In this document: piece after piece, positions 37,001 through 55,271 of the stretch
How the letters are laid out: each line of letters opens with the position of its first letter
Numbering within the stretch: the first letter of the stretch is position 1
The notes under the pieces: generated by a model
What the model saw: the letters and a program-made list of their open reading frames with translations, nothing else
What the model was told of the DNA's origin: nothing
Database searches by the model: none
Source: a virus
Virus record (IMG/VR): IMGVR_UViG_3300034082_002860
Location: 1-56,851 of that record
Strand: one strand, 5' to 3'
Length of the DNA stretch: 56,851 nt
Made by a program: the position numbers and the translations under genes

Positions 37001-37104
37001 CTGATGGTGGCGTTTATTGTTCCGTCTACCTGAAGATCTCCAAAAAAACGGGCTGAGCCCGATACATTAAGTGATCCAGAGACATTTGCGTCAAATATTT
37101 TCAT
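34003..37104 (-). CDS. Collagen-like tail fibre with S74 chaperone domain
   Basis: Protein of 1033 residues. N-terminal part (1-183): Ser/Gly/Thr-rich short beta repeats (VSGSLNVSGS). Two long Gly-X-Y blocks, about 184-305 and 440-694, made of G-[ST]-[SNRA] triplets without proline, a collagen-like rod of bacterial type. Between and after them are beta-helical or repeat-type segments. The C-terminal 96 residues (DERLKENVL, GVIAQEIEKVLPE, then a coiled-coil end) form a peptidase S74-type intramolecular chaperone that trims itself after trimer assembly. Likely a long tail fibre or spike contacting the host. It has the putative late promoter 21 nt upstream, and a TibC-like transferase gene lies 66 nt upstream in the same direction. 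Confidence 0.92.
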   Translation of the reverse strand: MKIFDANVSGSLNVSGSARFFGDLQVDGTINATISGTTSNALTLDTTGSARFATTGSNLFKANQTISGSIIPSVNNAYDLGDATHWWKDIYVSTGSIFIGGIKAISTNSDGTIQVGAQVVQTSASLASVGLPVPPTGSVGSSQSTIVGSQNITGSQSITGSLAVSGSLAVTGSLFINGTSYTAATSGTSGSSGTRGTSGTSGTSGSSGSNGSSGSSGSNGSSGSSGSNGSSGTSGTSGTSGSNGSSGTSGTSGSSGTRGTSGTSGSSGTAGTSGSSGSNGSSGTSGTSGSNGSSGTAGTSGSSGTTTITNAVDNRVMTSAGGVTLNAESNLTFDGTTLSLTGSQIVSNNLTVNGTLTAQQYVVSSSVTNMTVQFASGSTAFGNDTVDVHQFTGSLQVTGSLRVPTAISTAAALGTVAGQIFYNTTDNNIYRYNGSTWLAAAGSSGTSGTSGSNGSSGTSGTSGTSGSNGSSGTSGSSGSNGSSGTSGSSGSNGSSGTSGTSGSNGSSGTSGSSGSNGSSGTSGSSGTRGTSGTSGTSGSNGSSGTSGSSGSNGSSGTSGSSGSNGSSGTSGSNGSSGTSGSSGTRGTSGTSGSNGSSGTSGSSGSNGSSGTSGSNGSSGTSGSSGSNGSSGTSGSSGSNGSSGSSGSNGSSGTAGTSGSSGSNGSSGTSGSSGSNGSSGTSGTSGSSGTSGTSGTSVSVSGTNNTLVKFTSASTVGNSTITDDGTTVTIGGNLVVSGTQTTVNSTTVAIGDNIISLNGSGAANGGIVVRDATAASLVSGSLLWNTTTDKWIAGPLGSELEIATISGTQTLTNKTIADTNLSTISTAGKVSNSATTATNANTANAIVSRDASGNFSAGTITAALSGNASTATTAGTVTTAAQSSITSLGTLTSLTVNGAVTLNTATTAVTGALIVGGATTSTTVGLIRASNDVIAYASSDERLKENVLTISGSLDILKQINGYYFDWITMEGVHENEGHDIGVIAQEIEKVLPEVVTTRENGYMAVKYEKLVALLIQTNKELLERVEALEEKIK
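35023..35786 (-). repeat. Gly-X-Y coding repeat, larger block
   Basis: DNA repeats encoding about 85 G-[ST]-[SNRA] triplets, with nine-base units and imperfect higher-order repeats (GSN and GSS mixtures). Such DNA is prone to slippage and recombination that alters rod length. It creates a long open frame of Pro/Glu-rich residues on the other strand, which I reject as a gene. Confidence 0.85.
36190..36552 (-). repeat. Gly-X-Y coding repeat, smaller block
   Basis: Second collagen-like block of about 40 triplets, including short exact tandem copies around 36420-36490 that encode GSSGSN. Same organisation as the larger block. Confidence 0.85.
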
Positions 37105-39960: not shown

Positions 39961-40630
39961 TTAATATATTTTTTAATTTTGTTAAATTTAATGACACATC
40001 TTCTGGTGCCTGCTTAGGTTTTAGTGTTGGTTTAACATTTTTATTTGTTTCAAGTGCTAAATCATAAATTGTTTTCAAATCTGTTCCAACGTTAATAATA
40101 CCATTTTGTTCTAATTTTATCAAGTTGATGATTATATCAGCAATCTTGTTTACATAATCAAAATTCCCAATAAGATTAATCCACGCATTATCATATGGAA
40201 ATGGATTTGGTTTATGTGATTCTCTTAATATTAAGTAATCATGAGATTTTAATTCAATGAAAGCATCAGCCAATAATTTGGTATATGAATACCAATTATT
40301 ACCATGTATTGGAATATCTTCTTCAGATGCATTTGAAACTGAATTTGTATAAACATAGTCAGTTGAAATATGTACCAATTTAATATTATAATTGTTACAA
40401 TAGCCAACCAAATCTGCAACTGCTTTATAATTAATATTCCAATTACTTTCTTTATCGTTGGAGTATGTGCTAGTAAATGCTATACAATTAACTATGACAT
40501 CGTAACCATAAAAATTAAACTCATCTTTGGTTATGTCAAACCCATCTTTTTTTCTTGAAATGTAATCCCAATTAGTTTGTTTAATTATTTCCGAGCCAAG
40601 TAAACCATCACCTAGAACTAATACCTTCAT
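39932..40630 (-). CDS. RmlD-like SDR reductase
   Basis: Protein of 232 residues with VLGDGLLGSEI (5-15), HISTDYVYTNSV (87-98) and Y114-x3-K118 in WYSYTK, the layout of dTDP-4-dehydrorhamnose reductase. It would reduce a 4-keto group on a nucleotide-deoxysugar, plausible for the product of the RfbH-like enzyme next to it. Slightly short for RmlD (about 280). Overlaps the 929-residue gene by 29 nt. Confidence 0.75.
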   Translation of the reverse strand: MKVLVLGDGLLGSEIIKQTNWDYISRKKDGFDITKDEFNFYGYDVIVNCIAFTSTYSNDKESNWNINYKAVADLVGYCNNYNIKLVHISTDYVYTNSVSNASEEDIPIHGNNWYSYTKLLADAFIELKSHDYLILRESHKPNPFPYDNAWINLIGNFDYVNKIADIIINLIKLEQNGIINVGTDLKTIYDLALETNKNVKPTLKPKQAPEDVSLNLTKLKNILNERSNNISI

Positions 40631-41919
40631 TATTTGAATTTTTTTACCACCTCTTCAATATAATTGAACACAACATCAGTATAATGTGGTGCTGCGCCTA
40701 TAAAGAATACCTTATCTAAAACTTTATTTGCTTCAGGATAGTTTTTATAATCATCTAAATGTGAATAACCTGGATGCATCAAAATATTACCTGCAAAATA
40801 ATTTCTTGTTTGTATTTTATTTTCTTCTAAAAATGCCACTAATCTATGTTTAAGTCCGGGTTCATCACAAATAAATGGTGTACCAAACCAACATGGTTCA
40901 GCACTAACTAACGTACTTGGTGCTCTTAAGTTTGGTATATTATCAACAAATATCTTTGTGATAATGCTATTGCTATTTCGTCTATTAGTTTCAATTTCTT
41001 CAAATTTTTCTAATTGTTCTAATCCAATTGCACCTTGTAAATCTAATGGTTTTAAATTGTACCCCATTTCACTGAATACATATTTGTGATCTATCACGCC
41101 ATCATAGTTTTCTAACCATTTATCAAATCTGTTACCACATGTTCCACATGGTAATAAATTTGCGGAGCCTATACAATAACAATCTCTTCCCCACCAACTG
41201 ATTGAGACAAATAATTTTTTTAATTCATCATCATTGGTACAAACCATTCCACCCTCACCTGTTGATATATGATGTGCAGGATAAAATGAATTTGCAAATG
41301 CTACATAATAATCCGTTAATGGCTTACCATTCCATTTTGAACCCAATGAATCACAATTATCACCTATCAATTTTAAGTTATGCTTATCAGCAATCTCTTT
41401 TAATTTATCCATATTAGGTGGGTTACCTAATACAGGTGAAACAAAAATTCCTTTTGTTTTTGATGTGATTTTAGCTTCAATTTGATTTATATCAAAATTT
41501 AATGTGTCCCACTCAATATCAATAAAAACAGGTTTCAATCTATTTTGATACAATACAGATATTGTTGTAGCAAAGCCAACAGGTGACACAATTATTTCAT
41601 CGTCATCTTCCCAATTAAATCTTCTCTTAAGCGCAGCAATTAAAACTAAGTTAGCTGAACTACCCGAATTAACCATGTGTGAATGTTTGACATTAAACAT
41701 TTTGCTAAACTTGTTTTCAAACTTGTACACTTTCTCACCAGTTGTAATCCATTTACCATTTAAAAATGTATCAATTGCTGCAACAGTTTCTTTTTCATCC
41801 CAATATGCCCCTGAATAGTAAACAGGTGTTTTACCGGGAATAAATTCTTTGTTATTATATAGATAAGGTGCAACATGATTACCACCTACTAAATCTTTAA
41901 TGTTTTCTAAATTTATCAT
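40630..41919 (-). CDS. rfbH: RfbH/DdhC-type NDP-4-keto-6-deoxyhexose 3-dehydratase
   Basis: Protein of 429 residues of the DegT fold. The PLP-lysine position is replaced by His (SFYPAHHISTGEGG, His216/217), the hallmark of 3-dehydratases that remove the C3 hydroxyl on the way to 3,6-dideoxyhexoses. A four-cysteine set C247, C249, C258 and C261 (RDCYC, then CGTCGNRF) matches the 2Fe-2S site of CDP-glucose E1 enzymes. It depends on an electron donor (E3), not seen here. The ferredoxin at 6134-6442 is a possible substitute. Confidence 0.85.
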   Translation of the reverse strand: MINLENIKDLVGGNHVAPYLYNNKEFIPGKTPVYYSGAYWDEKETVAAIDTFLNGKWITTGEKVYKFENKFSKMFNVKHSHMVNSGSSANLVLIAALKRRFNWEDDDEIIVSPVGFATTISVLYQNRLKPVFIDIEWDTLNFDINQIEAKITSKTKGIFVSPVLGNPPNMDKLKEIADKHNLKLIGDNCDSLGSKWNGKPLTDYYVAFANSFYPAHHISTGEGGMVCTNDDELKKLFVSISWWGRDCYCIGSANLLPCGTCGNRFDKWLENYDGVIDHKYVFSEMGYNLKPLDLQGAIGLEQLEKFEEIETNRRNSNSIITKIFVDNIPNLRAPSTLVSAEPCWFGTPFICDEPGLKHRLVAFLEENKIQTRNYFAGNILMHPGYSHLDDYKNYPEANKVLDKVFFIGAAPHYTDVVFNYIEEVVKKFK

Positions 41920-44654
41920 TATCTTGTAAAATATATCATTTGTAACGCATTATTATATCCCATAAATAAAATGTATGAGTTGAACCCTAAGTCATTCATT
42001 TTGCGAATAAAATTAGTTCTTAGGTCATCATCAAAATCAAAATGACTATGATGATACTCCATTGCTATGGTTCTAACTTTCATTAAATTCTCATCACTAA
42101 TTCCAGCAAATGCCGCGTGTTCCGCTCCCTCGATATCCACTTTTAAAAAGTCTATCTTATCGACTAATCCACTTTCAAATAGATAGTTAAGTGTGTATGT
42201 TCTAACATTGTAACCTTCTTGACCTTCAATGCCAAATACATTAGACCCACCTAAATGGCTACTCTCATATAAATTTAGTTCACCAATTTCGTGTGCGACA
42301 GCAGCATTAAACAAAACTGAACGTGGGTCAGCATTTGATGATAGTAGTTTAAAATATCTTCTATCTGGTTCAAATGAGATTACTTTACTCGCACCTTGAT
42401 GATATGCCCACCTATTGAAGATACCCATATTACCTCCCAAATCAACCACAATATCTCCTTCATGTATTCTTCTTTCATTACCACCTTTATAGTAATCGTG
42501 TAAGTTAAAAATTTCATGGTAGATAGCTCTTGCCCACCCATACTTATCTGCAACTTCAATGGTTCCACCTTGTACATCTTTAATATCACCTAAGTTCTCT
42601 AACTTATATGTGTTAACATCTAATGATGTGTAAAATTGTTCTGATTTATAAAAACTATTATCACGTTGCATTTTAATGAAGTCCATCATAAAATCGGACA
42701 TCTGTGCATTCTTATTACCATGAAAGTAAAGAATTTGATTCTTATCTTTTGGTATTGCTTGATATCCAAATATTCTATTGAAGTTTTGTGGTCCTTCTTC
42801 ATTCCAAAACTTTAAGAAATGATGTTGCGTTTCATTTGTCATTCCATCGTCACCATCATAAGATGATGTATCAAAATTAGATAGTGGTAAATGTTTTTTA
42901 AAGTTGTATTTCCATCTCATCACATTATCAATGCCCTCATCATTCCATAGGTATAAACGTTTGTAATCTTTACCTCCGTCTTTCATTACTTCCACATAAT
43001 GATTAATAATCTCTTCAAACCACCATTTACATTCTTTATTAAAAATATACATACAAACGTGCATATAAGGTTGTTGTTTTTGAACTCCCCAATCTCCTGC
43101 AACTTGTTCATTAAACAATTGAGATTTAGTTCCATTATCATACCAACCAAAGAATTCTTCTTGAACGTGTATATCAGATATTGGATAATTCTCAATCTCT
43201 TTGAAATAAGATTTAATGTTATCTACATTATAATTTACAACTACGTCTCCATCCATCCAAACATAGTTATCAAATCCTTCATTGATGGATTCAATACATG
43301 CCATTTGTTTCCAATACCATTTATCGTGTTCAGATATCTTTTGTGTTGTTATCGTTCTTTTAATAATATTTGGATAATCAAATGGAACTTCACAATCAAT
43401 ACCATATACTATAATCTTACGTTTAGAAAATTCTAATAATGATTGAACTAACTTTTCAATCACCGGCATATAACCAATGTTTCCAGTTGTAATAAAAGCA
43501 AAGTCATCAAATTTATTCTCAAGTATATCTGACGCACCCTTTGCAACAGTGCCCCAATTAAACTCTTCATGTATTTCTTTCGATTCAACCATAGCAAATG
43601 ATTTATGTTTTTTATATTTGTTAAACGCACTTAACATTTGTTCACCCAAATTATTCCAATCAGGTTCACAATATTCACCAGGAAAATCCTTGTGTTCCAC
43701 ATTTGCGGGTCTTAATCCATCTATCTTTACAGGAATACCTTTACCTTCAGCAAACTGTAACTGTCCCCCCCAATCTGAATAGATTGATGGTGTTCCACAA
43801 GCCATAGCCTCAATCAATGGTAAGTTCCACCCTTCACTACGAGCACACGTCACAAACACATCACCCTCTTGCAAATATTTCACATATTCTTCCTGTGGTG
43901 TGAATTTTATAAACTTGATGTTTGTTGTATCTATGTTGTGATGTTTAACTCTTTCTTCGGTTGTTTTAAGTCCGTCAAATGGGTAAGGATTTTCAACAGA
44001 TGCAATTAACTCTACATCATCTCTATCTTTAAATGTCTCACTAAACGCCCTTAATACCTCTGTGGTTCCTTTCCTATAATCCCATCTACCAAAATGTAAG
44101 AACCTAAATTTGTCCTTATTTGGTACCTTGGTTAATGGTTTAAATGTCTCCACATCAACCCCCTCAGGAACTATTGATATTTTATGTGATGGGTAACCTT
44201 GTTCAACCAAACAATCAAATTGCCATTGAGTCGGAACCCATACCTCATCGAAGTAATGTAATCTTTTAAAGAAATTATCCGGATAACGTGTTGATTCCCA
44301 AACGTTATACGCAATATTATACCCCACATAATTGTCATAGAAATAATGATTGTTGGTATCTACCAAAACAATATTAACGTCTGGTTTATAACCACCATCA
44401 TATCCGTAGATTGGGTAATCCGATCTACTACCGTCCGAATTATTAAGAGTTTGAAGAATTAACATATCCTTCATCTCATCTGTGATGTAAGGTTCATTAT
44501 CGTGTGGGGTATTATTCATTCCCTTCCAACCCCCACCTATGGTAGAGTTTCTAACCTTTACTGTGTGGTATTTGTTCAGAGCACAAAAAAAGGACTTTGC
44601 ATGATTAGCATATCCTGTGACTCCGATAAAACATGTATGTGCAAGTATTTTCAT
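41919..44654 (-). CDS. GT4 glycosyltransferase / GT-A / FkbM methyltransferase fusion
   Basis: Protein of 911 residues with three modules. About 1-370: GT-B glycosyltransferase with SEGWNLPLIEAMACGTPSIYSDWG. About 380-660: GT-A-like region with NYVWMDGDVVVNY. About 690-911: FkbM methyltransferase (DIVVDLGGNMGIFNRWAY, KVDIEGAEHAAFAG). One protein could add a sugar and then methylate it. Overlaps the RfbH gene by 1 nt; its own TTCA-N10-TTATATTATA element lies 4 nt before the start. Confidence 0.82.
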   Translation of the reverse strand: MKILAHTCFIGVTGYANHAKSFFCALNKYHTVKVRNSTIGGGWKGMNNTPHDNEPYITDEMKDMLILQTLNNSDGSRSDYPIYGYDGGYKPDVNIVLVDTNNHYFYDNYVGYNIAYNVWESTRYPDNFFKRLHYFDEVWVPTQWQFDCLVEQGYPSHKISIVPEGVDVETFKPLTKVPNKDKFRFLHFGRWDYRKGTTEVLRAFSETFKDRDDVELIASVENPYPFDGLKTTEERVKHHNIDTTNIKFIKFTPQEEYVKYLQEGDVFVTCARSEGWNLPLIEAMACGTPSIYSDWGGQLQFAEGKGIPVKIDGLRPANVEHKDFPGEYCEPDWNNLGEQMLSAFNKYKKHKSFAMVESKEIHEEFNWGTVAKGASDILENKFDDFAFITTGNIGYMPVIEKLVQSLLEFSKRKIIVYGIDCEVPFDYPNIIKRTITTQKISEHDKWYWKQMACIESINEGFDNYVWMDGDVVVNYNVDNIKSYFKEIENYPISDIHVQEEFFGWYDNGTKSQLFNEQVAGDWGVQKQQPYMHVCMYIFNKECKWWFEEIINHYVEVMKDGGKDYKRLYLWNDEGIDNVMRWKYNFKKHLPLSNFDTSSYDGDDGMTNETQHHFLKFWNEEGPQNFNRIFGYQAIPKDKNQILYFHGNKNAQMSDFMMDFIKMQRDNSFYKSEQFYTSLDVNTYKLENLGDIKDVQGGTIEVADKYGWARAIYHEIFNLHDYYKGGNERRIHEGDIVVDLGGNMGIFNRWAYHQGASKVISFEPDRRYFKLLSSNADPRSVLFNAAVAHEIGELNLYESSHLGGSNVFGIEGQEGYNVRTYTLNYLFESGLVDKIDFLKVDIEGAEHAAFAGISDENLMKVRTIAMEYHHSHFDFDDDLRTNFIRKMNDLGFNSYILFMGYNNALQMIYFTR

Positions 44655-44658
44655 ATAG

Positions 44659-44685
44659 TATAATATAATGAAAATATGTGAAAAA
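44659..44685 (-). promoter_or_regulatory. TTCA-N10-TTATATTATA element (putative phage promoter)
   Basis: Minus strand TTTTTCA, 10 nt, TTATATTATA, 4 nt, ATG at 44654. Matches the copies at 5770 and 33669 in sequence and spacing. Confidence 0.5.
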
Positions 44686-45489
44686 TCAAATCAAATTTTG
44701 TTTATTTTTTGGTAAATAATTTATATAACTTGGGAAATTTTTTGATATAAAATCATGTAGTTTATTTGCATAGGTCTTATTATGGTTAGGCCCTGGATGT
44801 GTGTTATCAACCCCCAAATCTAAATATTTTCCGTAATCCCCATCAAACCTATTGGGTTCGTTATAATCAAATAGTGTTAATTCTCTACCATTCCATATCC
44901 AATTACATTTTTTTAATTCTAAAAAATATTTTATTAATAAATGATTTTTATACCAATTTATAAAATCCTCATTATTATTTTGTAAGTGAGTTAAATACTC
45001 TTGTGTTTTAATACCGTCATCCGTCTCCTTTAAATAACCCCAAGATGCTGTCGGCATAAAGGGTTCAATGCCACCGTCTTTAGTATATATTTCTCTTCTT
45101 AAAGGTGAAGGATACATTATCAATATTAAATCAGGTTTTATTATGTCATAATATGTTAATAAACATCTACATATAAAATCGTTACTTCTTCCACCTGTTC
45201 CAAAATTTAAATTCACTCCATTTTCAATATGACTACAAAATTGTGCTGGCCATGTTTCATCATCATTTACACCAACCCCTTCGGTAATTGAACAACCTAA
45301 TGACATTACTTTAAAACCTTCTTTTTTTATACTATCTCCCCTAAATCCTAATTCATTATAGGTGTAGGTACATAGATTAGTATTATCTCCACCGGAAGTT
45401 GTATATGTTTGATTTACTCTTTCTCTTAATGAATATTTATAAGATGAAATTTCAAATCCTTCTATATTCCAATATTTTAATGGGTTCAT
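44686..45489 (-). CDS. SGNH/GDSL hydrolase-like protein
   Basis: Protein of 267 residues with VMSLGCSITEGVG (block I, nucleophile Ser), GTGGRSND (block III-like Asn) and DNTHPGPNHNK (the catalytic Asp-x2-His). This is the SGNH acyl-hydrolase set. Such enzymes often add or remove acetyl or other acyl groups on polysaccharides. Location in a glycan-modifying cluster fits. No signal peptide. Overlaps the upstream gene by 4 nt. Confidence 0.78.
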   Translation of the reverse strand: MNPLKYWNIEGFEISSYKYSLRERVNQTYTTSGGDNTNLCTYTYNELGFRGDSIKKEGFKVMSLGCSITEGVGVNDDETWPAQFCSHIENGVNLNFGTGGRSNDFICRCLLTYYDIIKPDLILIMYPSPLRREIYTKDGGIEPFMPTASWGYLKETDDGIKTQEYLTHLQNNNEDFINWYKNHLLIKYFLELKKCNWIWNGRELTLFDYNEPNRFDGDYGKYLDLGVDNTHPGPNHNKTYANKLHDFISKNFPSYINYLPKNKQNLI

Positions 45490-45983
45490 ATTAATTTATT
45501 TGTAGGTGTTTTTATATGTTCGTTTTGTAAAAACCATAATAAAGAGTATCGTTCACCTTCTAAAATTGGTGTTATTTCATGTTCCATTCTTACATCAAAT
45601 AAATATGTATTTCCAATAACTTTATCTAATATAATTTCATTTGGATTGTATAATTTAAAATCACCACCTTCAAAATCATTATTTAGCAAAACACCCACAG
45701 CATATAATCTATTGTCTCTGATATCATTATGTTTTCCAAACCAATCACCTTTTACAAATTTATGAAAATGAATAACTTCTTTATTTTTTTTTATCTGTAT
45801 TTTTGATTGTTCTTCAAAAAATGTTTTAAGCTTATCAAACAACCATTTGGTTTCTAACGAACATATAATTGGTTGTGAGTGATATTTTCTATCGTTATTA
45901 TCCCAATTGGTAATATTATTACTTCCATAAAAAATAATAGACTGACACTCCTCTTTACTAAATAGTTTATTTTGTTTTATCAT
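45486..45983 (-). CDS. 2OG-Fe(II) oxygenase, prolyl-hydroxylase-like (copy 1)
   Basis: Protein of 165 residues. Fe ligands H85-x-D87 (GKHND) and H135 (MEHEIT), with Arg145 (GERYSLLW) for 2-oxoglutarate. The GGDFKLY strand is also typical. The family hydroxylates protein side chains, free amino acids, nucleobases or small molecules. First residues FSKEECQSI are shared with the next gene, and the two share a 25-nt identical DNA stretch. Overlaps both neighbours. Confidence 0.82.
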   Translation of the reverse strand: MIKQNKLFSKEECQSIIFYGSNNITNWDNNDRKYHSQPIICSLETKWLFDKLKTFFEEQSKIQIKKNKEVIHFHKFVKGDWFGKHNDIRDNRLYAVGVLLNNDFEGGDFKLYNPNEIILDKVIGNTYLFDVRMEHEITPILEGERYSLLWFLQNEHIKTPTNKLI

Positions 45984-46534
45984 ATAATATGTTTTATATT
46001 TTTAATAGTATCAGATTGAACTATAAAAAACATAAGTGTAATTCTTTCTCCCAATTCAATTAAATCAACTGAATGTGGTGTATTTGAATCAAATATATAT
46101 ACATTACCTAAATTAAAATCAATATTAACTACATCATTATTAATATACATTTTTAAATCTCCACCAATTAAATCTTCCGATTTATGAATCATCACACCAA
46201 TAGTATACAATCTCCTATCTCCATTGTGAATATGGTCATTGTGTTTTATAAAATAATCACCTTTGACATATTTTCTATAACCCGCATTTAAGTTTTTATT
46301 ATGATTTATTTTATACAAAACCACATCCAAAGAATTAACCCAATTTATAACTCTATTTTTAATCCAACTATTATTATCGTCCCAATTTATTTTAAACGAT
46401 TTCATAATACCTCCTTTGTTGGTTAATTGTCCACCCAATCGTACGCTTATAATAGTATCATCCCATTTTTCAATATTTTTCAAAATGGACTGACACTCCT
46501 CTTTACTAAATAATATTTTTTCTTTTAAAATCAT
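45980..46534 (-). CDS. 2OG-Fe(II) oxygenase, prolyl-hydroxylase-like (copy 2)
   Basis: Protein of 184 residues. Fe ligands H98-x-D100 (IKHND) and H154 (TPHSV), with Arg164 for 2-oxoglutarate. The first third differs from copy 1 but the catalytic core (VKGDYFIKHND, GGDLKMY, GNVYIFDSN) is closely parallel. A recent tandem duplication is likely from the 25-nt identical N-terminal coding repeat. Substrate unknown. Confidence 0.82.
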   Translation of the reverse strand: MILKEKILFSKEECQSILKNIEKWDDTIISVRLGGQLTNKGGIMKSFKINWDDNNSWIKNRVINWVNSLDVVLYKINHNKNLNAGYRKYVKGDYFIKHNDHIHNGDRRLYTIGVMIHKSEDLIGGDLKMYINNDVVNIDFNLGNVYIFDSNTPHSVDLIELGERITLMFFIVQSDTIKNIKHII

Positions 46535-46555
46535 TTTTTATTTCAATAGGTTTAA

Positions 46556-47107
46556 TCATATCAAAGTTTTTTTAAAATTTTCCAATGGGGTTATTTTAAA
46601 CCAATTAACTAATGAATATCTTGTTCCTGATATTATGGGTTTTACTCTATGTGTTAAATGTGAATAAAAAATAAATAAATTACCCAATCCTTTTTCTAAT
46701 GTTATTTCATTATCATCTACATCTTTTATTTGTAATTCACCCCCTGTATATTCTTCATTTAATTGTATAACCATTGAACAATATCTTTCTTTAGCTAAAC
46801 TACTATCAGAATCTGTGTGCCAATTATAATAACCACCTTTTGTATATTGTGTAAATTGAAATTGATTATCAGTAAAATCAATTTCATAACCTTTTACCTT
46901 AACTTCTTTTTTAAAAATTTTAATTAATTTTTCATTTAAATTTGGAAAATCTAAACTATAATCATGAAAAAAAATATTTGATTTTCTTAAATCTAAATCA
47001 CCATTAACTACTGTTGCTTCGGATAACTTTTTAGTTAATGAAAATTGTAATAATAAATCACATTCTTCTTTTGTTAAAAATTCTTTTATTGTGGTAAATG
47101 TATTCAT
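46556..47107 (-). CDS. 2OG-Fe(II) oxygenase, prolyl-hydroxylase-like (copy 3)
   Basis: Protein of 183 residues. Fe ligands H97-x-D99 (NWHTD) and H153 (LTHRV), with Arg163 (GTRYSLVNWF). GGELQI replaces the GGD-[FL]-K of the others. This is the most divergent of the three and resembles PiuC/P4H-type enzymes. It lies 1 nt from the radical SAM gene. Confidence 0.85.
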   Translation of the reverse strand: MNTFTTIKEFLTKEECDLLLQFSLTKKLSEATVVNGDLDLRKSNIFFHDYSLDFPNLNEKLIKIFKKEVKVKGYEIDFTDNQFQFTQYTKGGYYNWHTDSDSSLAKERYCSMVIQLNEEYTGGELQIKDVDDNEITLEKGLGNLFIFYSHLTHRVKPIISGTRYSLVNWFKITPLENFKKTLI

Positions 47108-47108
47108 A

Positions 47109-48152
47109 TTATATCAACGATGTATGTGTGGAATCAACAAACTCATATAGATTATGGAATAGATTTGTATTTTTCCATATTTTATTAAATTCTTTTTTAA
47201 ACAATTGGTGTTCTGGATGTTCCGTATCCCAAACTTGTTTTAATTTAAATTCACCTTCCGAAAATGTCCCCCAATTAGTTATTTTACCAAAAAATACATT
47301 TACCTTTTTTCCAAAAATAGAATACATTGTATTATAAAAGGTTTCCATTTCCATATAGTTACTATCTTGTACAACAAATGAGGTTTTTACACTTATTTTT
47401 GGTAAGGTGTTAATAAATTTTAAATTGTTCATTAAATTTTCCCAATTACCACCCAACCTTGTTTTATTTTCGTAAGTATCTTTTGTACCCGCATCTATAC
47501 TAATTTCACAGGTATGAACGTACTTATGTACATTTGGCATACTATCCCACATTTCTTTATTCCACATGCTTGCGTTGGTATGAAAATGAATAGATTTTAA
47601 ATTTGGATATTTTTTAGGATTAAAATTTCTTAAATAGTTTCTAAAACCGACGGAAACAAATGGGTCCCCTGATCCTGTTATATATAAAGTTTTAACGTGT
47701 TTTGAATAATATTTATCAATATCTTCAATAGTTTTTTCTACTCGTTTTATACCTTCACTATTTTCAACAATTAAATCAACTCTACACGATGGGCATTTAT
47801 AATTACAGGTTCTATCAAAATTCATTACCAAATAATCAGGTGTATTATTTTTTATAATAGGAGTATTAATATTTAAATCTGATTTTAACGTAATTGGTCC
47901 TGATGTAACTCCATAGTTTACCAATTTACTTAAATAGGGACAAAGTTCTTTACTACAATACTTAAATGAACCATCCAATATAGAATTTCTAATATCAATT
48001 ATAGGTTCACTATTAAAAACATCTTTTAGTGGAATTTCACGAAGTTCTACTTTGTTGGGTAACCATGATGGGCAACAAACAAAACACACATTATTGTGTA
48101 TTTCTAATGAATTAAAAGGAACACTACAAAAATAATTCTTTAAATCTACCAT
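47109..48152 (-). CDS. Radical SAM protein with N-terminal SPASM-like cysteines
   Basis: Protein of 347 residues. The radical SAM cluster motif is C116-x3-C120-x2-C123 (TCNYKCPSC). The N-terminal 75 residues have C9, C23, C26, C27, C66 and C71, resembling a SPASM-type auxiliary cluster domain placed before the core, an order seen in several phage and bacterial proteins. YITGSGDPFVSVGF is the glycine-rich SAM stretch. SPASM proteins often modify peptides or carry out sugar and sulfatase maturation. The target is unknown. Depends on 4Fe-4S assembly. Confidence 0.85.
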   Translation of the reverse strand: MVDLKNYFCSVPFNSLEIHNNVCFVCCPSWLPNKVELREIPLKDVFNSEPIIDIRNSILDGSFKYCSKELCPYLSKLVNYGVTSGPITLKSDLNINTPIIKNNTPDYLVMNFDRTCNYKCPSCRVDLIVENSEGIKRVEKTIEDIDKYYSKHVKTLYITGSGDPFVSVGFRNYLRNFNPKKYPNLKSIHFHTNASMWNKEMWDSMPNVHKYVHTCEISIDAGTKDTYENKTRLGGNWENLMNNLKFINTLPKISVKTSFVVQDSNYMEMETFYNTMYSIFGKKVNVFFGKITNWGTFSEGEFKLKQVWDTEHPEHQLFKKEFNKIWKNTNLFHNLYEFVDSTHTSLI

Positions 48153-48180
48153 ATAAAATTTTTATATCTAAAAACATTTT

Positions 48181-48567
48181 TTAAATTATTTTATAAATGT
48201 TTTGAAATTTTTCAAAAGCATTGTCTCCATAATATATACAAAGTTCTTCGTTAATATCAATATCTTTTAACGCCGTAAATGTTACAATGTGTTTATCTTC
48301 ATCAATTACTCTAAATTTTATATTTGGAATATCACTATGATTATACAGTGAACCGAATCCAAAACAATAGTATACATCGGATGAAGTGTTATTTTTATTA
48401 TATACATAATTTTTTAAAGATGTGGTATTGTGGTTATCAACGATACAATAACATGTCTCAGCAATTTCATTTTTTTCTATTTTTTCTTTGCAAAAAACAC
48501 CCCAACCTTTTTTTTTGTTAATAAATTTGATATAGATTTTATTTGATGGGTGAATTTCAGTTGTCAT
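48181..48567 (-). CDS. SET-domain protein
   Basis: Protein of 128 residues. KKGWGVFCKEKI (19-30), the SAM-binding NHS at 76-78 (GSLYNHSDIPNI) and ELCIYYGD (108-115) follow the order of a minimal SET domain. SET enzymes methylate lysines in proteins. Viral SET proteins are known (for example in chlorella viruses). No pre- or post-SET zinc domain. Overlaps the sulfotransferase gene by 4 nt. Confidence 0.82.
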   Translation of the reverse strand: MTTEIHPSNKIYIKFINKKKGWGVFCKEKIEKNEIAETCYCIVDNHNTTSLKNYVYNKNNTSSDVYYCFGFGSLYNHSDIPNIKFRVIDEDKHIVTFTALKDIDINEELCIYYGDNAFEKFQNIYKII

Positions 48568-49250
48568 ATTAATGTTTTTATTTCTTTTTCATATGCAACT
48601 TTTTCAAAATTATCATAAATAAAATTTTTAAATTCATCATTAATTATTATTTTATTTTTTTCTTTTTTGGAAGAATTAATTTTTTCTATTTTTATTTTTT
48701 CACCGAACTTATTTTCTATAAAATTAACAAATTTATCTAAATCGGTTATGTCAAATTCATATGTACATGTTTCAAATCCCTTCCAAATATTTTGTGTTGC
48801 CAACGTCGCCATAAATAAATAATCTTCATCCTTATCATCTGGAATTATTGTTTTTGTAAATATATTATAATAATTTTTTTTCCATTTATTAAAATCCCAC
48901 GAATATAAATCTTTTAATATGTTTGGATTGAAATTATCGTAAATAAATTGATTATCAACATCACACCATTTTAATTTACATTTATTGAATCCAGATGGTT
49001 CTATATTGGAGAATATAAATTCCATTGAACTAACCCATCTATCCAACCAATTTCGTTTTATACAAAATGTTTCTTTTTTACCAAATTCATCATATAAAGT
49101 TTCTACTTTAACATGTGGATGTGCAAATTTTTTGTAACCATTGGCTTTGGTGATTTTAAGATTTGATGATAATAATGCAGATTCTATCGAATGTGATGCA
49201 CATCTCGGTATTGATATCCATATCAATTCATCATTGATGAGTAAACTCAT
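48564..49250 (-). CDS. Sulfotransferase-like protein
   Basis: Protein of 228 residues with ISIPRCASHSIESAL (13-27), which is the 5'-PSB loop of PAPS-dependent sulfotransferases, and CIKRNWLDRWVSSMEF (Arg66, Ser74/75), the 3'-phosphate-binding region. It would transfer sulfate from PAPS to a sugar or protein hydroxyl. An APS kinase is encoded 2.6 kb away at 51801-52238, which supports this. Confidence 0.72.
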   Translation of the reverse strand: MSLLINDELIWISIPRCASHSIESALLSSNLKITKANGYKKFAHPHVKVETLYDEFGKKETFCIKRNWLDRWVSSMEFIFSNIEPSGFNKCKLKWCDVDNQFIYDNFNPNILKDLYSWDFNKWKKNYYNIFTKTIIPDDKDEDYLFMATLATQNIWKGFETCTYEFDITDLDKFVNFIENKFGEKIKIEKINSSKKEKNKIIINDEFKNFIYDNFEKVAYEKEIKTLI

Positions 49251-49528
49251 TAAATAACTGTTTTATTATTTTTTCTTTTTGGAAAATAAGTTGAGTCTAT
49301 TGATTCCCATTTTTTTAGTGGGCAATCATTGAACTCATCTGAGAATATTTTTTTTGATAACGGACAACCACATTCTCCGCATACCGTTCCAATTTTTAAC
49401 TTTGTGGTTAACGTTTTTTTAGATGGGCACACATCACATATTTCAAATCTTTTTTTAGCTAACATCTGTTGTTCAGTATTGGGATTATTAGCTGTAATCC
49501 AGGCCTTAGCAATTTTTAAAAAATCCAT
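49250..49528 (-). CDS. Zinc-ribbon phage protein (92 aa)
   Basis: Contains ICDVCPSKK and VCGECGCPLSKKIF with DCPLKKW after it; five or six Cys form one zinc site. The pattern is common among small proteins of aquatic phages of unknown function. Overlaps the sulfotransferase gene by 1 nt. Confidence 0.65.
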   Translation of the reverse strand: MDFLKIAKAWITANNPNTEQQMLAKKRFEICDVCPSKKTLTTKLKIGTVCGECGCPLSKKIFSDEFNDCPLKKWESIDSTYFPKRKNNKTVI

Positions 49529-49547
49529 ATAATCTATTTTAATTTAT

Positions 49548-49625
49548 TTAAGAATTGACATTAATGATTAATTGTCCGACTTGTGTCATTACACTATTAA
49601 TTGTTTGTTTTTCTGTTGTTGACAT
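49548..49625 (-). CDS. Possible 25-residue peptide
   Basis: Short frame beginning MSTTEKQTINSVMTQVGQLI in the gap between two genes. It has a plausible start and a weak helix, but nothing else supports it. Confidence 0.3.
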   Translation of the reverse strand: MSTTEKQTINSVMTQVGQLIINVNS

Positions 49626-49645
49626 TTTATAGTTTTATTTTTAAT

Positions 49646-51178
49646 TTATTCAGGTTGTGCACAGGTGCCAGTACATCCGCCTCCCATAATTGCGGGGTTA
49701 TACAACGGGGATCCTGTTGTGCAAAAATCACCTTTATCGGGGCAGTTACATTGTAAGCAACTAAAACCGCACCCGGTGCAGGATACATTGTGTTCTATTG
49801 CAACATATGATGATGTATTATCTTCTGACATGGTTAAGAACATATGATTATCTTGTACAGTTATTTCATATCCACTAAATATTATTTTATTTGTTACAAT
49901 TGTTTGTACTTCTTTTAATACTGGTGTAGGTGTTTCTTGTGTGGTGTCAATTAATATTACACTATCACCAGGTAAAAGACAAGAATCTTCTTCCGAACAA
50001 ACTGAATACAATCTTAAAAACCTAACATTATCATTTCTTAATGATAGATACGATGAACCATCAACATCTTCCCATATTGTACCATCTGTAAATGTTATTG
50101 TATCATATACAGATATTTTATTAATTTGTACTTTGTTTGTAATTTGTTTTGATGTGTATGTACTTCCACTTAAAAATTCAGCATAACTTATATTGAACTC
50201 AGTTGTTTCACTGACTAAATCAACGTTATTAGGGTTTGGTATGTTTATGGTTTTTACCAAATCACCTATTTGTAATTCTTCCCCTGTTTTAAACGTACCA
50301 TCCGCCATTTCAACTTTATCGGTTGATAATAATTTTGGATTATTCAATAAACCGTCATCGGAAATATATTTTATTTTATCAATACTTGAAATTTCAAAAG
50401 TTTCTGAATCAAATGTACTTAATTCGTCAACCGATTTTTTTGCCAAATATGTATATCCACCCAAAGATATTGATTCTAACGATGGTGGATATAATAAATT
50501 TAAACCTCTGTAAGTAGGTATGATTCCTTCATGTAAATTTTCTGAATTATAATGATACTCCATTAAAAAATAATCAGAAGTAACCATATTTGAAATAAGA
50601 GTATTTAATTCTTCTTGTGATGATATTTTATATAATTTTGGGTATATTTCCTTATCATAATCTGGTAATACCGACTTTAAAATAAAATTTGGGTGGTTAC
50701 CATTATCGTTAATAGTCGTAATATTATTAACAATTGTATTGGATTCATTTAAATAAGCAAATTGAGACCCAAACGTTGAATCTTTAATTAAATTTAAAAA
50801 ATTAACTTTATCTCTACAATATGTGTCGTCTACCAATGCCGTTGTATCATACGCACTTCTGATAATCAATGTTTGGTCATTATCCTCAACAAATGGTATA
50901 GTGATTGAATTTGATGATACACCATATAAACTATATGTTATACCCAATTCATTACATAATGTTTTTAATTTTTCATCAATAGGATGAACACTTCCAATAT
51001 ACACAATACTAGTAAATTCGTTTGATGTTATAAAAGTAGATAAACTTGTTAAATCTAAAACAGAATCATATGTTTCTACTGTACTCTCCGTCCAGCCCAC
51101 ATTTGTGTTTATCTCAATTGGTTTTAAGTTACCATCTTTGTCGTACATAAAGTCCGAACCTAATAATACTGTCCTCAT
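49646..51178 (-). CDS. Virion-type protein with ATP-grasp-like and Hint-like regions
   Basis: Protein of 510 residues, Asn/Ser/Thr-rich. The N-terminal half has GNLKPIEINTNVGW, then TLIIRSAYDTTALVDDTYC and FILKSVLP, reminiscent of ATP-grasp folds but in an unusual order. From about residue 285, DKVEMADGTFKTGEELQIGD with NHMFLTMSED near 455 resembles a Hint (intein/hedgehog) module without the nucleophilic first Cys. The end is Cys-rich (CTGCGFSCLQCNCPDKG). The upstream AGTATTTATA element suggests late expression. Resembles large proteins of T4-like marine phages from memory; role unknown. Confidence 0.55.
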   Translation of the reverse strand: MRTVLLGSDFMYDKDGNLKPIEINTNVGWTESTVETYDSVLDLTSLSTFITSNEFTSIVYIGSVHPIDEKLKTLCNELGITYSLYGVSSNSITIPFVEDNDQTLIIRSAYDTTALVDDTYCRDKVNFLNLIKDSTFGSQFAYLNESNTIVNNITTINDNGNHPNFILKSVLPDYDKEIYPKLYKISSQEELNTLISNMVTSDYFLMEYHYNSENLHEGIIPTYRGLNLLYPPSLESISLGGYTYLAKKSVDELSTFDSETFEISSIDKIKYISDDGLLNNPKLLSTDKVEMADGTFKTGEELQIGDLVKTINIPNPNNVDLVSETTEFNISYAEFLSGSTYTSKQITNKVQINKISVYDTITFTDGTIWEDVDGSSYLSLRNDNVRFLRLYSVCSEEDSCLLPGDSVILIDTTQETPTPVLKEVQTIVTNKIIFSGYEITVQDNHMFLTMSEDNTSSYVAIEHNVSCTGCGFSCLQCNCPDKGDFCTTGSPLYNPAIMGGGCTGTCAQPE

Positions 51179-51196
51179 ATTGTTTTACTATTTGTA

Positions 51197-51206
51197 TATA
51201 AATACT
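51197..51206 (-). promoter_or_regulatory. AGTATTTATA element (putative late promoter)
   Basis: AGTATTTATA on the minus strand, 18 nt before the ATG at 51178, overlapping by one base the stop codon of the preceding gene. Confidence 0.45.
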
Positions 51207-51421
51207 TATTTTTTATCTTTTAAGCCAAATTTTATCCATTTATACCAAATTCTTTCGTGAAGATAGTATTGGATAGGTTTATATATTAATTCTACCACCC
51301 CGAAAGCCGTACCAACCTTGATTGATCCACTTACCCACCATATTATTAAAAACCCAATAAGAGTACTTACAATACGATATGAGATGGTTTTAGCAATATG
51401 TCGTTTACGTTCTACTATCAT
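51206..51421 (-). CDS. DUF2061 membrane protein
   Basis: Protein of 71 residues with KRHIAKTISYRIVSTLIGFL, a second hydrophobic segment and YYLHERIWYKWIKFG. This is the DUF2061 pattern, a two-helix membrane protein. It often lies next to sulfate-activation genes in bacteria (recall). It overlaps the nucleotidyltransferase gene by 4 nt, which overlaps cysC in turn. Confidence 0.85.
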   Translation of the reverse strand: MIVERKRHIAKTISYRIVSTLIGFLIIWWVSGSIKVGTAFGVVELIYKPIQYYLHERIWYKWIKFGLKDKK

Positions 51422-51804
51422 TTGTCATTCATATCTGGATATTCTATAATATCTCCGTTTGAGTCAATATACCCGTTTCTGATACTCGTACCACTAATTT
51501 TAGCCACATCTTCAGGTGGTTCGTGGTAAATAACATCATACCCAACTCCTCTACCATAATTGATACTCTCAATATCTGGAATTATGGATATATTAATTCT
51601 ATGTGAATTTTCATTAAAAAACGGTTCTTCCGCCAAATCCATCATCACTTGTTGAGCGGTTTTTGGATTGTTCTCATCTGTCTCTACATTTCTAATGGCA
51701 ACCCATACGTCTTTTCCCTTCTCTAATTGTTGGTTGAGAAGCCATTCATGACCCTTATGCCAATTCTGCCAACGTCCCACATACATCGCATATTTTTTAA
51801 TCAT
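51418..51804 (-). CDS. Nucleotidyltransferase with HKGH and ISGTSIR motifs
   Basis: Protein of 128 residues with MYVGRWQNWHKGHEWLL (HKGH at 16-19) and KISGTSIRNG (102-111). This is the HxGH adenylyl-transferase fold. NMN adenylyltransferases have HxGH and ISxTxxR; ATP sulfurylases use HxxH and ISGTxxR. The latter half-motif and location next to cysC make a minimal sulfate-activating role possible, but an NMNAT-like role is equally reasonable. Confidence 0.65.
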   Translation of the reverse strand: MIKKYAMYVGRWQNWHKGHEWLLNQQLEKGKDVWVAIRNVETDENNPKTAQQVMMDLAEEPFFNENSHRINISIIPDIESINYGRGVGYDVIYHEPPEDVAKISGTSIRNGYIDSNGDIIEYPDMNDK

Positions 51805-52238
51805 AGTGTTAATTTTTTTAATATTTCATAATAAGATTCTGTCTCAGTTTTATCTGTTGTATCTAAATCTATAAAGTTTTCGGTCGGTGGTTCGTAATTC
51901 TCCACATGAAACTGATTTCTACCCCTATCCTCCGTTGTGTGAACGTAAACCTCAATAACGTCTTCTCTATTCTTAAAGTCCTCTCTTTGATCTTTATATG
52001 GGGAAACTAAGGACACCAAGACCGTAAACCCTTTTTTATCCAAAAATTGAGCGATGTCTTGTGCTCTTTCAATATTTTTTCTCCTCCCCACCTCAGAATA
52101 GTCCTTATTTTGAAAGATATCCCTTAAATCGTCACCATCTATAATAATAGTGTTCTCCTTACCAAAATGGGTTAAGAGGTTGTTTACTAACGTTGTTTTA
52201 CCTGATGCGGGTTGTCCAGTGAACCAATATATAGCCAT
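51801..52238 (-). CDS. cysC: Adenylylsulfate (APS) kinase
   Basis: Protein of 145 residues with P-loop GQPASGKTT (8-16), IIDGDDLRDIF, GRRKNIERAQDIAQFL and VLVSLVSPYKDQRE, the CysC motifs in order. It phosphorylates APS to PAPS, the sulfate donor of sulfotransferases; one such gene is at 48564-49250. Slightly short at the C terminus compared with bacterial CysC (about 190). A TATATTATA element lies 5 nt before its start. Confidence 0.85.
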   Translation of the reverse strand: MAIYWFTGQPASGKTTLVNNLLTHFGKENTIIIDGDDLRDIFQNKDYSEVGRRKNIERAQDIAQFLDKKGFTVLVSLVSPYKDQREDFKNREDVIEVYVHTTEDRGRNQFHVENYEPPTENFIDLDTTDKTETESYYEILKKLTL

Positions 52239-52396: not shown

Positions 52397-54064
52397 TTAA
52401 TTTTTATACATAACATAATTACCCATTACTAATATATCCATATCAGTATCAAAGAAAGTGTCAACGGCATCTTTTGGTGTAAGAACCATTGTTTTATCTT
52501 TAACATTGAATGAGGTATTTAGTAAAATTGGATAACCACTTAATTTTTCAAATTCCCTTAATAAATCATGAATTACGGTGTATTTGTAAACTGTTTGAAC
52601 TCTTGCACTACCGTCTACATGTGTAACTGCTGGTAGTTTATCTCGATATTCTTCCTTTACCTTAACAACTTGATTCATATATGGAACATCGTCTGTCATC
52701 TCGAAGAATTGGTCTTGTTTCTCTTTGGTTACCATTGGTGCAAACGGTCTAAAACCTTCTCTTTTTTTAATGACCTTATTAATTCTATCTTTCATATCTG
52801 GTAACGTAGGGTTTGCCAATATTGATCTATTACCCAATGCTCTTGATCCAAATTCTATATGACCATTAAACCATCCCACAACTTTACCTTCAAATAATTT
52901 TTGTGCAATGTGTGTTCTTAATTTATTTTCAGATTCAAACTTTTTGTAGTTGTTGTTACCAATTGCTTGTCTAATATCGTCTAAATAATATTCGGGACCT
53001 AAAAATGGATTTCTCGTAATTTTACTTCTTACTTTACGTTCTTTAACTAAATAATGAACGACCGCCCCAATCGCAGATCCTGCGTCAGATGGTGCGGGTG
53101 GAATCCAAAGATGGGTGAAGTGTGTCTTATCAATAATTTTACCATTTGCTGTTCCATTATATGCACAACCACCACTTAATGTTAAGTTTAGACTTTTACT
53201 TACGTGTCTAATCGATTTGATAATTTCAAATAATACCTCTTCGTATCTTAATTGAACAGCCGCCGCCAAATCTTTATGTGTTTTTTCTAAAGTTTCTTCA
53301 GGTAATCTTTGTGGAACACTTAATAGTTCCGCAAGTTTCTCATTGAACATAGATTTATCGGTCTTATTCCAACAAAATACATCCATATTACATACTAACT
53401 TACCACTTTTAAATGAAATCAAATCACGTACCTCTTTAATATACTTTTGAGGGTCACCATAGGACGCTAATCCCATTACCTTATACTCACCTTCGTTCGG
53501 TCTAAACCCTAAATAAGAGGTTAATGCGGAGTAATAAAGACCCATTGAATGTGGATACTTTGCAAGTGAACTATATTTAATTCCATTGTAATCGGCAACT
53601 CCCAATGACACCGTATCAATCTCACCTACACCGTCAACCGATAAACAAGTTGATTCCTCAAAATGAGATGTATAATGCGCATAATACTGATGAGCCTCGT
53701 GATGTGTTGAATAAAATACCGTAGGACAAATCTCTTTTAATTTCTTATCAATTTCCTTTATGTTATTACGTATTTTCAAATAGGACTTTAACGAATACAT
53801 TGGATTTTTAAACCATTGAGGTTTAATGTTTTCCATTACCCTTTGATACTTTAATTTAGGGTCTTCATAATAACAAATCACTTGTAAATTCTTAGGTGTA
53901 ATCTTATATTGTTTATAGATATATTCCAACGCCTTGACCGGAAACGAATCATCATGTTTAATACCTGTGAACTTTTCTTCTTCACATGCGAATATTAGTT
54001 GATTATCTCTGAATAAACATACAGAGGAGTCGTGGTAAAATGCGGATATTCCTATTATATACAT
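52397..54064 (-). CDS. NodU/CmcH-family O-carbamoyltransferase
   Basis: Protein of 555 residues. The start IIGISAFYHDSSVCLF, YSTHHEAHQYYAH with the metal-binding His cluster (121-125), SVDGVGEIDT, LSGGCAYNGTANGKI, EFGSRALGNRSILANP and KREGFRPFAP are all NodU/CmcH motifs, covering the Kae1-like and the C-terminal YrdC-like carbamoyl domains. It transfers carbamoyl from carbamoyl phosphate, via carbamoyl-AMP, to a sugar or other hydroxyl. Likely decorates the phage-made glycan. Confidence 0.93.
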   Translation of the reverse strand: MYIIGISAFYHDSSVCLFRDNQLIFACEEEKFTGIKHDDSFPVKALEYIYKQYKITPKNLQVICYYEDPKLKYQRVMENIKPQWFKNPMYSLKSYLKIRNNIKEIDKKLKEICPTVFYSTHHEAHQYYAHYTSHFEESTCLSVDGVGEIDTVSLGVADYNGIKYSSLAKYPHSMGLYYSALTSYLGFRPNEGEYKVMGLASYGDPQKYIKEVRDLISFKSGKLVCNMDVFCWNKTDKSMFNEKLAELLSVPQRLPEETLEKTHKDLAAAVQLRYEEVLFEIIKSIRHVSKSLNLTLSGGCAYNGTANGKIIDKTHFTHLWIPPAPSDAGSAIGAVVHYLVKERKVRSKITRNPFLGPEYYLDDIRQAIGNNNYKKFESENKLRTHIAQKLFEGKVVGWFNGHIEFGSRALGNRSILANPTLPDMKDRINKVIKKREGFRPFAPMVTKEKQDQFFEMTDDVPYMNQVVKVKEEYRDKLPAVTHVDGSARVQTVYKYTVIHDLLREFEKLSGYPILLNTSFNVKDKTMVLTPKDAVDTFFDTDMDILVMGNYVMYKN

Positions 54065-54065
54065 A

Positions 54066-55271
54066 TTAAATTAAACTTTGGAAAAAATTATAGTCTCTTT
54101 TATCATTAAGAATTTCAAAAATTATATTTCTATTTTTTATGAATCTATCTTCATTATTTTTATAAAAATCTTTTACTACTTGTGGATTTTCATTTAATCT
54201 TCTTATTTCATCCGCAATCATAAACAATCTTTTACCGTTATCAATTTCATTATCATAACTATGATTTACTAAATCATCAAACATATCAAAACCATACATA
54301 TCTCTTAAATATTTAACATGTTGATAGGTTGCAACAAAAATTGGTATTTGATAAAAATTAAATGGTGTAAATGTCTTTTCAGTTATATGTATTATATATG
54401 GTGAAACAAAATTAGTTTCAGTGGTTATATTAATATATGAATTTGAATATGTCTTTACTTTATACGCATCGTGGTGGTCATATCTGTGTCCTCCTTCATC
54501 AAAATTATATTCATATTCATATTTACTTTTCTTAATTTCAAAATTTGAGAAGTAATCTACTTCATTTTTTAAAGATTTCTGTATTTCTTCATTAAACACA
54601 TCTTTAAAAAACCAATTTACTATGTTACCATCTGATAAAATTAAACTTTTTATTTGGAACGCTCTTAATAAACTCCAATCTACATCACCTAAAATTTTAT
54701 ACTTTTTTAATAAACACAATATACCCAATCTATGAGATTTTAATGCTCTATTATGTATCATGAATAAAAATTCTTTCTCAGATTCAAATGTCACATTAGT
54801 GAAACTTAATCTTTGACAATTAGCATATTGTCCATGATTTATTGTGTAAACATTAATATCACTATTATTTTTATTTTTTAAATTTTCTAATTTATGGTTA
54901 GCATTTATATAATAAACCTTTTTTGAGTCTAAGTTTTCTTTTTTTAATCTATAGTCAACTATTTCTATGGTTTCATCAAAATCAGATTCATTTAATTCTA
55001 AAAAAATTATTTTAAAATTTTCATTATTAATAAAACACTCTTTTATATTTGTTGGTATGGTTTTTACAATATCTATTTCATTAGTAAAATTTAAATATTC
55101 ACCAATTTTTGTTACAATATAATAAAAATTTTCGTTTGGTGTTTTAGTGACGTCATCAATGTTACATATTTTTACATTATGTACATTTCTTGAAGGGGAT
55201 TCTAACTCATTTCTGATTTCCACTTCATTAAAATATACACCATCACATACAACATTAAAAAATCTATCCAT
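54066..55271 (-). CDS. Uncharacterised 401-residue protein, glycan-related
   Basis: Mixed alpha/beta protein without membrane segments. Around residues 300-325, HITEKTFTPFNFYQIPIFV and then MYGFDMFDDLVNHSYDNE match a block repeated in the neighbouring gene at the right edge (TEKTYKPILYEQPFL). From memory this pattern occurs in viral and bacterial glycosyltransferase-like proteins of GT10/exostosin type. Family and role uncertain. One nt separates it from the carbamoyltransferase. Confidence 0.5.
   Translation of the reverse strand: MDRFFNVVCDGVYFNEVEIRNELESPSRNVHNVKICNIDDVTKTPNENFYYIVTKIGEYLNFTNEIDIVKTIPTNIKECFINNENFKIIFLELNESDFDETIEIVDYRLKKENLDSKKVYYINANHKLENLKNKNNSDINVYTINHGQYANCQRLSFTNVTFESEKEFLFMIHNRALKSHRLGILCLLKKYKILGDVDWSLLRAFQIKSLILSDGNIVNWFFKDVFNEEIQKSLKNEVDYFSNFEIKKSKYEYEYNFDEGGHRYDHHDAYKVKTYSNSYINITTETNFVSPYIIHITEKTFTPFNFYQIPIFVATYQHVKYLRDMYGFDMFDDLVNHSYDNEIDNGKRLFMIADEIRRLNENPQVVKDFYKNNEDRFIKNRNIIFEILNDKRDYNFFQSLI

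Follow-up and report, generated by a model that had tools for sequence, protein, structure and literature searches.

Does a viral genome encode its own route from sulfate to a sulfated macromolecule, and could a 128-residue nucleotidyltransferase (NT) provide the first step? Known sulfate activation proceeds through either CysDN or Sat. The question was raised by one locus in a viral record of 56,851 bases, the whole of which was analysed and is called the window here. The first-pass annotation had placed genes for an APS kinase (cysC), the NT, DUF2061 and a sulfotransferase within 48564-52238. All four were found there on the minus strand (Table 1), but the span also holds a 510-aa and a 92-aa open reading frame (ORF), both between DUF2061 and the sulfotransferase gene, which lies approximately 2 kb downstream of the other three. 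The overlaps claimed for that trio were present, each of four nucleotides (ATGA), at both the kinase/NT and NT/DUF2061 junctions; the three genes are therefore likely to be translationally coupled. The kinase and DUF2061 both exceeded their Pfam cut-offs. The 510-aa protein had no significant family match; it is conserved beside DUF2061 (25 related ORFs), part of it recalls Hint/intein motifs, and its tail is rich in Cys.

Table 1. Window coordinates of the genes discussed, with the basis of each assignment.
Feature	Position	Strand	Basis
APS-kinase-family P-loop kinase (cysC-like), 145 aa, short lid	51801..52238	-	PF01583, phmmer, motifs
NT: NadM-related HIGH-superfamily nucleotidyltransferase, 128 aa; proposed minimal ATP sulfurylase	51418..51804	-	motifs, hhalign, AF2/Foldseek
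DUF2061 small membrane protein, 71 aa; putative sulfate-activation accessory	51206..51421	-	PF09834, linkage to NT
510-aa conserved protein, no assigned family; module membership uncertain	49646..51178	-	cluster of 25
PAPS-type sulfotransferase, heparan-sulfate-2-O/6-O-sulfotransferase-like, 228 aa	48564..49250	-	motifs, orthologue profile, Foldseek
NodU-type carbamoyltransferase, upstream of trio; decoration enzyme (context)	52397..54064	-	PF02543 E 3e-60, PF16861 E 2e-65
Proteins ending in -LI	37171-49528 and 54066-55271	-	also set-A loci L001-L080, L219-L220, L225-L240

Identity of the kinase, the nucleotidyltransferase and the sulfotransferase

The kinase matched the Pfam APS_kinase family (PF01583) at 63.1 bits (cut-off 21.1, E = 4e-17), and its best PDB matches were solved APS kinases (phmmer, E = 3e-10). 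Alignment with canonical APS kinases, including those of haloarchaea and Bacteroidota, showed that GxPxxGKT, DGDxxR, [FY]SxxxR..N and SPYxxxR are retained and that the residues contacting the nucleotide and APS are kept. In the same alignment the lid motif KGLYxxA...FTG, part of the segment that in canonical enzymes closes over APS, was missing, the region being approximately 20 residues shorter with RGRxxFHV in its place, and the protein scored below the NCBIfam apsK equivalog cut-off (64.6 v 138.7). The earlier label of cysC thus stands at the level of the family, but the lid is shorter than in canonical CysC. Because of this difference we use the name APS-kinase family and infer the substrate: the protein is probably a divergent APS kinase, with APS as the predicted substrate, and its specificity could have shifted. 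The altered lid is also a point in favour of a pathway without sulfate, in which the kinase would act first by phosphorylating a small alcohol and the NT would then form an NDP-activated group, as in NadR, FAD synthetase and HldE. Most metabolic pairings of a kinase with a HIGH-superfamily NT run in that order, and CysC-like kinases with other substrates exist, as in the Campylobacter phosphoramidate pathway.

The NT family conserves GRWQxWHKGH, R38, YGRxVGY and ISGTxIR. Pfam gave only a weak, sub-threshold CTP_transf_like/NadM signal, and hhalign returned probabilities of 98 for NadM (E = 1e-13), 36 for PPAT and 2 for Sat. Like NadM NMN adenylyltransferases, the protein has GRFQPxHxGH-type (GRxQxxHxGH) and IS[STG]TxIR (ISxTxIR) motifs and the core of the fold; unlike them, it lacks approximately 40 residues of the acceptor half (YN..W ... 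GHxKDxSSYYLxxFP), carries the new YGRxVGY motif and sits in a different gene context. There was no Pfam match to Sat (PF01747), and the Sat motifs QxRNPxHxxH and GRDHAG were absent. Direct membership of the Sat family was ruled out by the profile comparison (hhalign, 2%). On sequence comparison the NT is therefore homologous to NadM and not to Sat or CysD. Its AlphaFold (AF2) model had a pLDDT of 82.7; Foldseek ranked NadM 2qjo best, with several ATP sulfurylases at similar TM-scores of approximately 0.45, all E-values being weak (best 3e-3), so the fold does not decide function. Loss of the acceptor segment fits an acceptor much smaller than that of NadM.

The NadM homology, together with the frequency of NadM in phages, would also suit a split NadR-like pair in NAD metabolism, with ribosylnicotinamide as the substrate of the kinase and NMN adenylylated by the NT. 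That reading is very improbable: the NT has lost the acceptor-side segment and scored 21.6 bits against a curated NadM cut-off of 181.2, the match of the kinase is to APS kinase, the neighbours are DUF2061 and a sulfotransferase gene, and no NadV or Nudix partner was seen. The missing segment and the sulfation context led us to downgrade NAD salvage as a role for the NT.

The nearby sulfotransferase gene reported in the first-pass annotation had no Pfam family match, a related protein matching Sulfotransfer_2 at 1e-4, and as a lone query its product found nothing related in IMG/VR, among isolate phages or in the PDB. Its assignment was confirmed through orthologues, 39-47% identical, in related loci, which also hold more distant paralogues. 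The protein has a PRCAS 5'-PSB, H44/H46 and an R66...S74 3'-PB, and P15, S19, S21, H44, H46, R66 and S74 were invariant in 15 sequences. The orthologue profile matched heparan sulfate 2-O-sulfotransferase (E = 0.026) over the PSB, HxH and 3'-PB, with the phage HxH aligned to HGH, the catalytic site of that enzyme. The AF2 model (pLDDT 81) had sulfotransferases as its top 11 Foldseek matches (best probability 0.75, E = 0.02, weak in absolute terms). A chance motif match was ruled out by this profile, the fold and the orthologues in related loci, which settled the identity. The phage enzyme resembles heparan sulfate 2-O/6-O-sulfotransferases in these motifs and in fold, but it is smaller, approximately 10% identical and from a prokaryotic virus.

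Separately, short proteins with PRSGSTNL, PRTGSTSL or GRCGSSSL N-termini occur in NT-bearing loci (L016 823-1386, L219 13389-13886 and L031 3717-4337). Having no Pfam match, they are probably further unrecognised sulfotransferase-like families.

Gene context in phages, haloarchaea and bacteria

We identified 262 relatives of the NT in IMG/VR and examined 80 of their loci. DUF2061 lay close downstream of the NT in 80/80. Of the 77 loci whose upstream sequence reached 600 bases or more, 44 had the kinase near the NT, the gene ends mostly overlapping; this conservation exceeds chance. The sulfotransferase family was present in 13 of 20 kinase-NT records (55-336 kb), and all 13 had a copy that lay 1.4-4.8 kb downstream of the NT and shared its orientation. 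Approached from the sulfotransferase side, NT and DUF2061 occurred in 13 of 24 loci, many of the others being incomplete or short. Thus, the sulfotransferase family and the module co-occur reciprocally.

Some records, of 145 and 117 kb, which may be fragments, carried NT and DUF2061 without an APS kinase. This arrangement is easier to account for with the NT as the first enzyme and a host kinase (CysC) completing PAPS, and it counts against the kinase acting first in a pathway without sulfate.

Neither Sat (PF01747) nor CysD/CysH (PAPS reductase) exceeded its cut-off in 15 phage records, which included one of 336 kb and the window, itself without PF01747. Phage PAPS would therefore not serve cysteine synthesis, and APS would have to come from the NT or from the host. 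The first-pass annotation had the trio supplying PAPS to the sulfotransferase; independent genome context and the absence of canonical ATP sulfurylases from these phage records support this well, but its 128-aa component proved to be a truncated NadM relative with no Sat/CysD homology. A host supply of APS is the basis of another reading, in which the kinase uses host-made APS, DUF2061 and the sulfotransferase follow, and the NT carries out some other adenylyl transfer to a different small acceptor. ATP sulfurylase is usually present in hosts, and the NadM-like character of the NT, with no specific similarity to Sat, fits such a role. We nevertheless judge it unlikely, as fusions of the NT with APS kinase occur in both phages and archaea, and the NT takes the slot held elsewhere by cysD/N beside DUF2061 and a sulfotransferase gene.

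Single-protein fusions, with the NT C-terminal to the kinase, were found in isolate phages and in at least 599 viral stretches, and PHROG 10255 covers both halves. GRxQxWHxGH, R38, YGRxVGY and IS[GA]TxxR were invariant across the separate and fused forms. DUF2061 was present in 34 of 80 phage loci with the fusion (Pfam-checked), and a recognisable sulfotransferase nearby in only 2 of 80, which weighs against the proposed pathway; in one phage locus (L130) sulfotransferase, kinase:NT fusion and DUF2061 are contiguous. Matches to phrog_10255 and CysD in control genomes were too unspecific for use. A genome scan for bacterial NT homologues gave a single phage-like contig, in a Chitinophagaceae MAG, which was also the sole match in 198 Bacteroidota genomes.

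On haloarchaeal plasmids, an NT approximately 40% identical to that of the window is fused C-terminally to a canonical APS kinase (E = 3e-45), and a sulfotransferase gene adjoined the fusion in 5/5 plasmids examined. This 'cysC' operon (sulfotransferase - CysC:NT - YqcI) shares with the phage module its NT domain and the adjacent sulfotransferase, but its kinase is fused and canonical, and no DUF2061 was seen beside the fusion. With the fusion as query, no viral relatives were found. Such a pairing of a canonical APS kinase with a neighbouring sulfotransferase gene argues against kinase-first synthesis of an NDP-activated group.

The DUF2061 protein matched PF09834 at 57.2 bits (cut-off 23.1, E = 2e-15). 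Among Bacteroidota genomes having DUF2061, approximately 10 of 15 had it adjoining cysD/cysH-type genes (Pfam-checked), and most copies in Bacteroidota have CysD/CysH-type genes or APS kinase as neighbours. In one Bacteroidota contig (L096 961-1683, minus strand) DUF2061 is fused to APS kinase, with another APS kinase adjoining and Sat on the same contig; this fusion links DUF2061 directly to sulfate activation. On Mesorhizobium nod plasmids DUF2061 lies between a sulfotransferase gene and cysDN. That rhizobial nodPQ-type cluster (sulfotransferase - DUF2061 - cysD - cysN) has the same functions and the same DUF2061 partner as the phage module; it differs in using the CysD/CysN sulfurylase where the module has a small NT, and the module is viral. 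These ties of DUF2061 to sulfate activation likewise tell against the kinase-first pathway, which we consider quite unlikely.

The kinase-NT fusions, the haloarchaeal plasmids and the bacterial contexts of DUF2061 are thus separate lines of evidence for sulfate activation.

Leu-Ile C-termini and the candidate acceptor

A C-terminal Leu-Ile (often KTLI or NKLI) was common to unrelated modifying enzymes around the module, among them sulfotransferases, 2OG oxygenases, radical SAM and SET proteins. It ended 124 of 592 distinct ORFs in related loci (21%, v 0.87% among internal dipeptides) and 0 of 674 ORFs in phages with the kinase:NT fusion. Homologues were counted individually here; when they were grouped into families, 27 of 164 clusters had a tagged member. 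The codons vary (TTA/TTG/CTA/CTT followed by ATA/ATT/ATC, with all three stops), so the signal lies in the protein. Tagged proteins made up 18/22 of the sulfotransferases, 44/76 of the 2OG oxygenases, 7/7 of the second PRSGSTNL family, 9/14 of the radical SAM proteins and 9/10 of a 267-aa family, and none of the NTs (0/56), kinases (0/33), DUF2061 proteins (0/22), carbamoyltransferases (0/34) or 510-aa proteins (0/25). The tag tends to mark enzymes that would act on a large substrate and not makers of small precursors, which suggests, as a hypothesis, that it is a common docking signal and that the sulfotransferase and the hydroxylases would accordingly share a substrate or scaffold.

Two further observations concern enzymes of these loci. 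A tryptophan-halogenase-family enzyme (E = 2e-87) is encoded in a related phage locus (L067 3474-4715), and 2 of the 3 members of its family end in -LI. Within the window, 48181-48567 (minus strand) encodes a 128-aa SET-domain protein (PF00856, E = 2e-11) that ends in -II; this lysine-methyltransferase fold seems unusual for a phage.

The genes around the module encode a DegT aminotransferase, GT4 and GT9 glycosyltransferases, two GDP-mannose dehydratases, FkbM methyltransferases, the NodU carbamoyltransferase and a collagen-like tail fibre. In this setting the acceptor is likely to be a glycan, or else a protein of the virion or surface that carries modifications. A glycan would suit both the wealth of glycan genes in the window and the resemblance of the sulfotransferase to glycan-modifying enzymes of the heparan-sulfate type; the sulfated virion glycans raised in the first-pass annotation are one candidate product. 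The tail-fibre-like protein (window 34003-37104, minus strand) contains five stretches of collagen repeats, with an endosialidase chaperone at the C-terminus, and the genome has several 2OG oxygenases; this protein is a candidate target of hydroxylation and of additional modification.

A predicted sulfation pathway

Gene identities, synteny, fusions and homologies are the observations from which we infer both catalytic steps, the role of DUF2061 and the acceptor. The NT would transfer AMP from ATP to sulfate, giving APS, an ATP-sulfurylase-like reaction although the protein is of the NadM branch of HIGH nucleotidyltransferases. The APS kinase, judged by its family and retained motifs, would convert APS to PAPS and so pull the unfavourable first step. 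DUF2061 may support the pathway, perhaps at the membrane. The sulfotransferase would then transfer the sulfuryl group to a macromolecule. A glycan or a hydroxylated protein is the most likely acceptor, with neighbouring genes supplying the enzymes that make or modify it.

It is highly probable that the module makes PAPS for sulfotransfer. That it does so with the NT as its predicted ATP sulfurylase and a macromolecule as acceptor is likely, and the sulfurylase role is the best explanation for the 128-aa protein. The chances are slightly in favour of the NT having arisen independently of CysDN and Sat as a third type of ATP sulfurylase: a NadM-derived enzyme of approximately 115-128 residues, widespread in phages and present in haloarchaea. 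Viruses would then have a sulfate-to-PAPS route in approximately 270 residues, with which to sulfate a surface molecule of their own or of the host. PAPS synthetases (APS kinase plus Sat, as in PAPSS1/2 and Aquifex SAT/APSK) similarly partner a kinase with an NT, fused in the relatives of the phage module, and feed sulfotransferases. They differ in having a Sat of approximately 390 aa in place of the small NadM-derived phage NT; the phage kinase is short-lidded, and the phage has DUF2061. In the open-access literature, covered mainly as titles and abstracts, we found no description of this NT, of a phage PAPS module or of DUF2061 function.

If the prediction is true, an energetically difficult reaction would be solved in a new way, by an alternative sulfurylase of very small size, and the annotation of fused proteins now called just 'adenylyl-sulfate kinase' or 'kinase' would be corrected. 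For the uncharacterised DUF2061 family, the module offers a pathway that can be tested. Phages, for their part, would bring their own sulfation machinery and remodel a surface or virion molecule with it.
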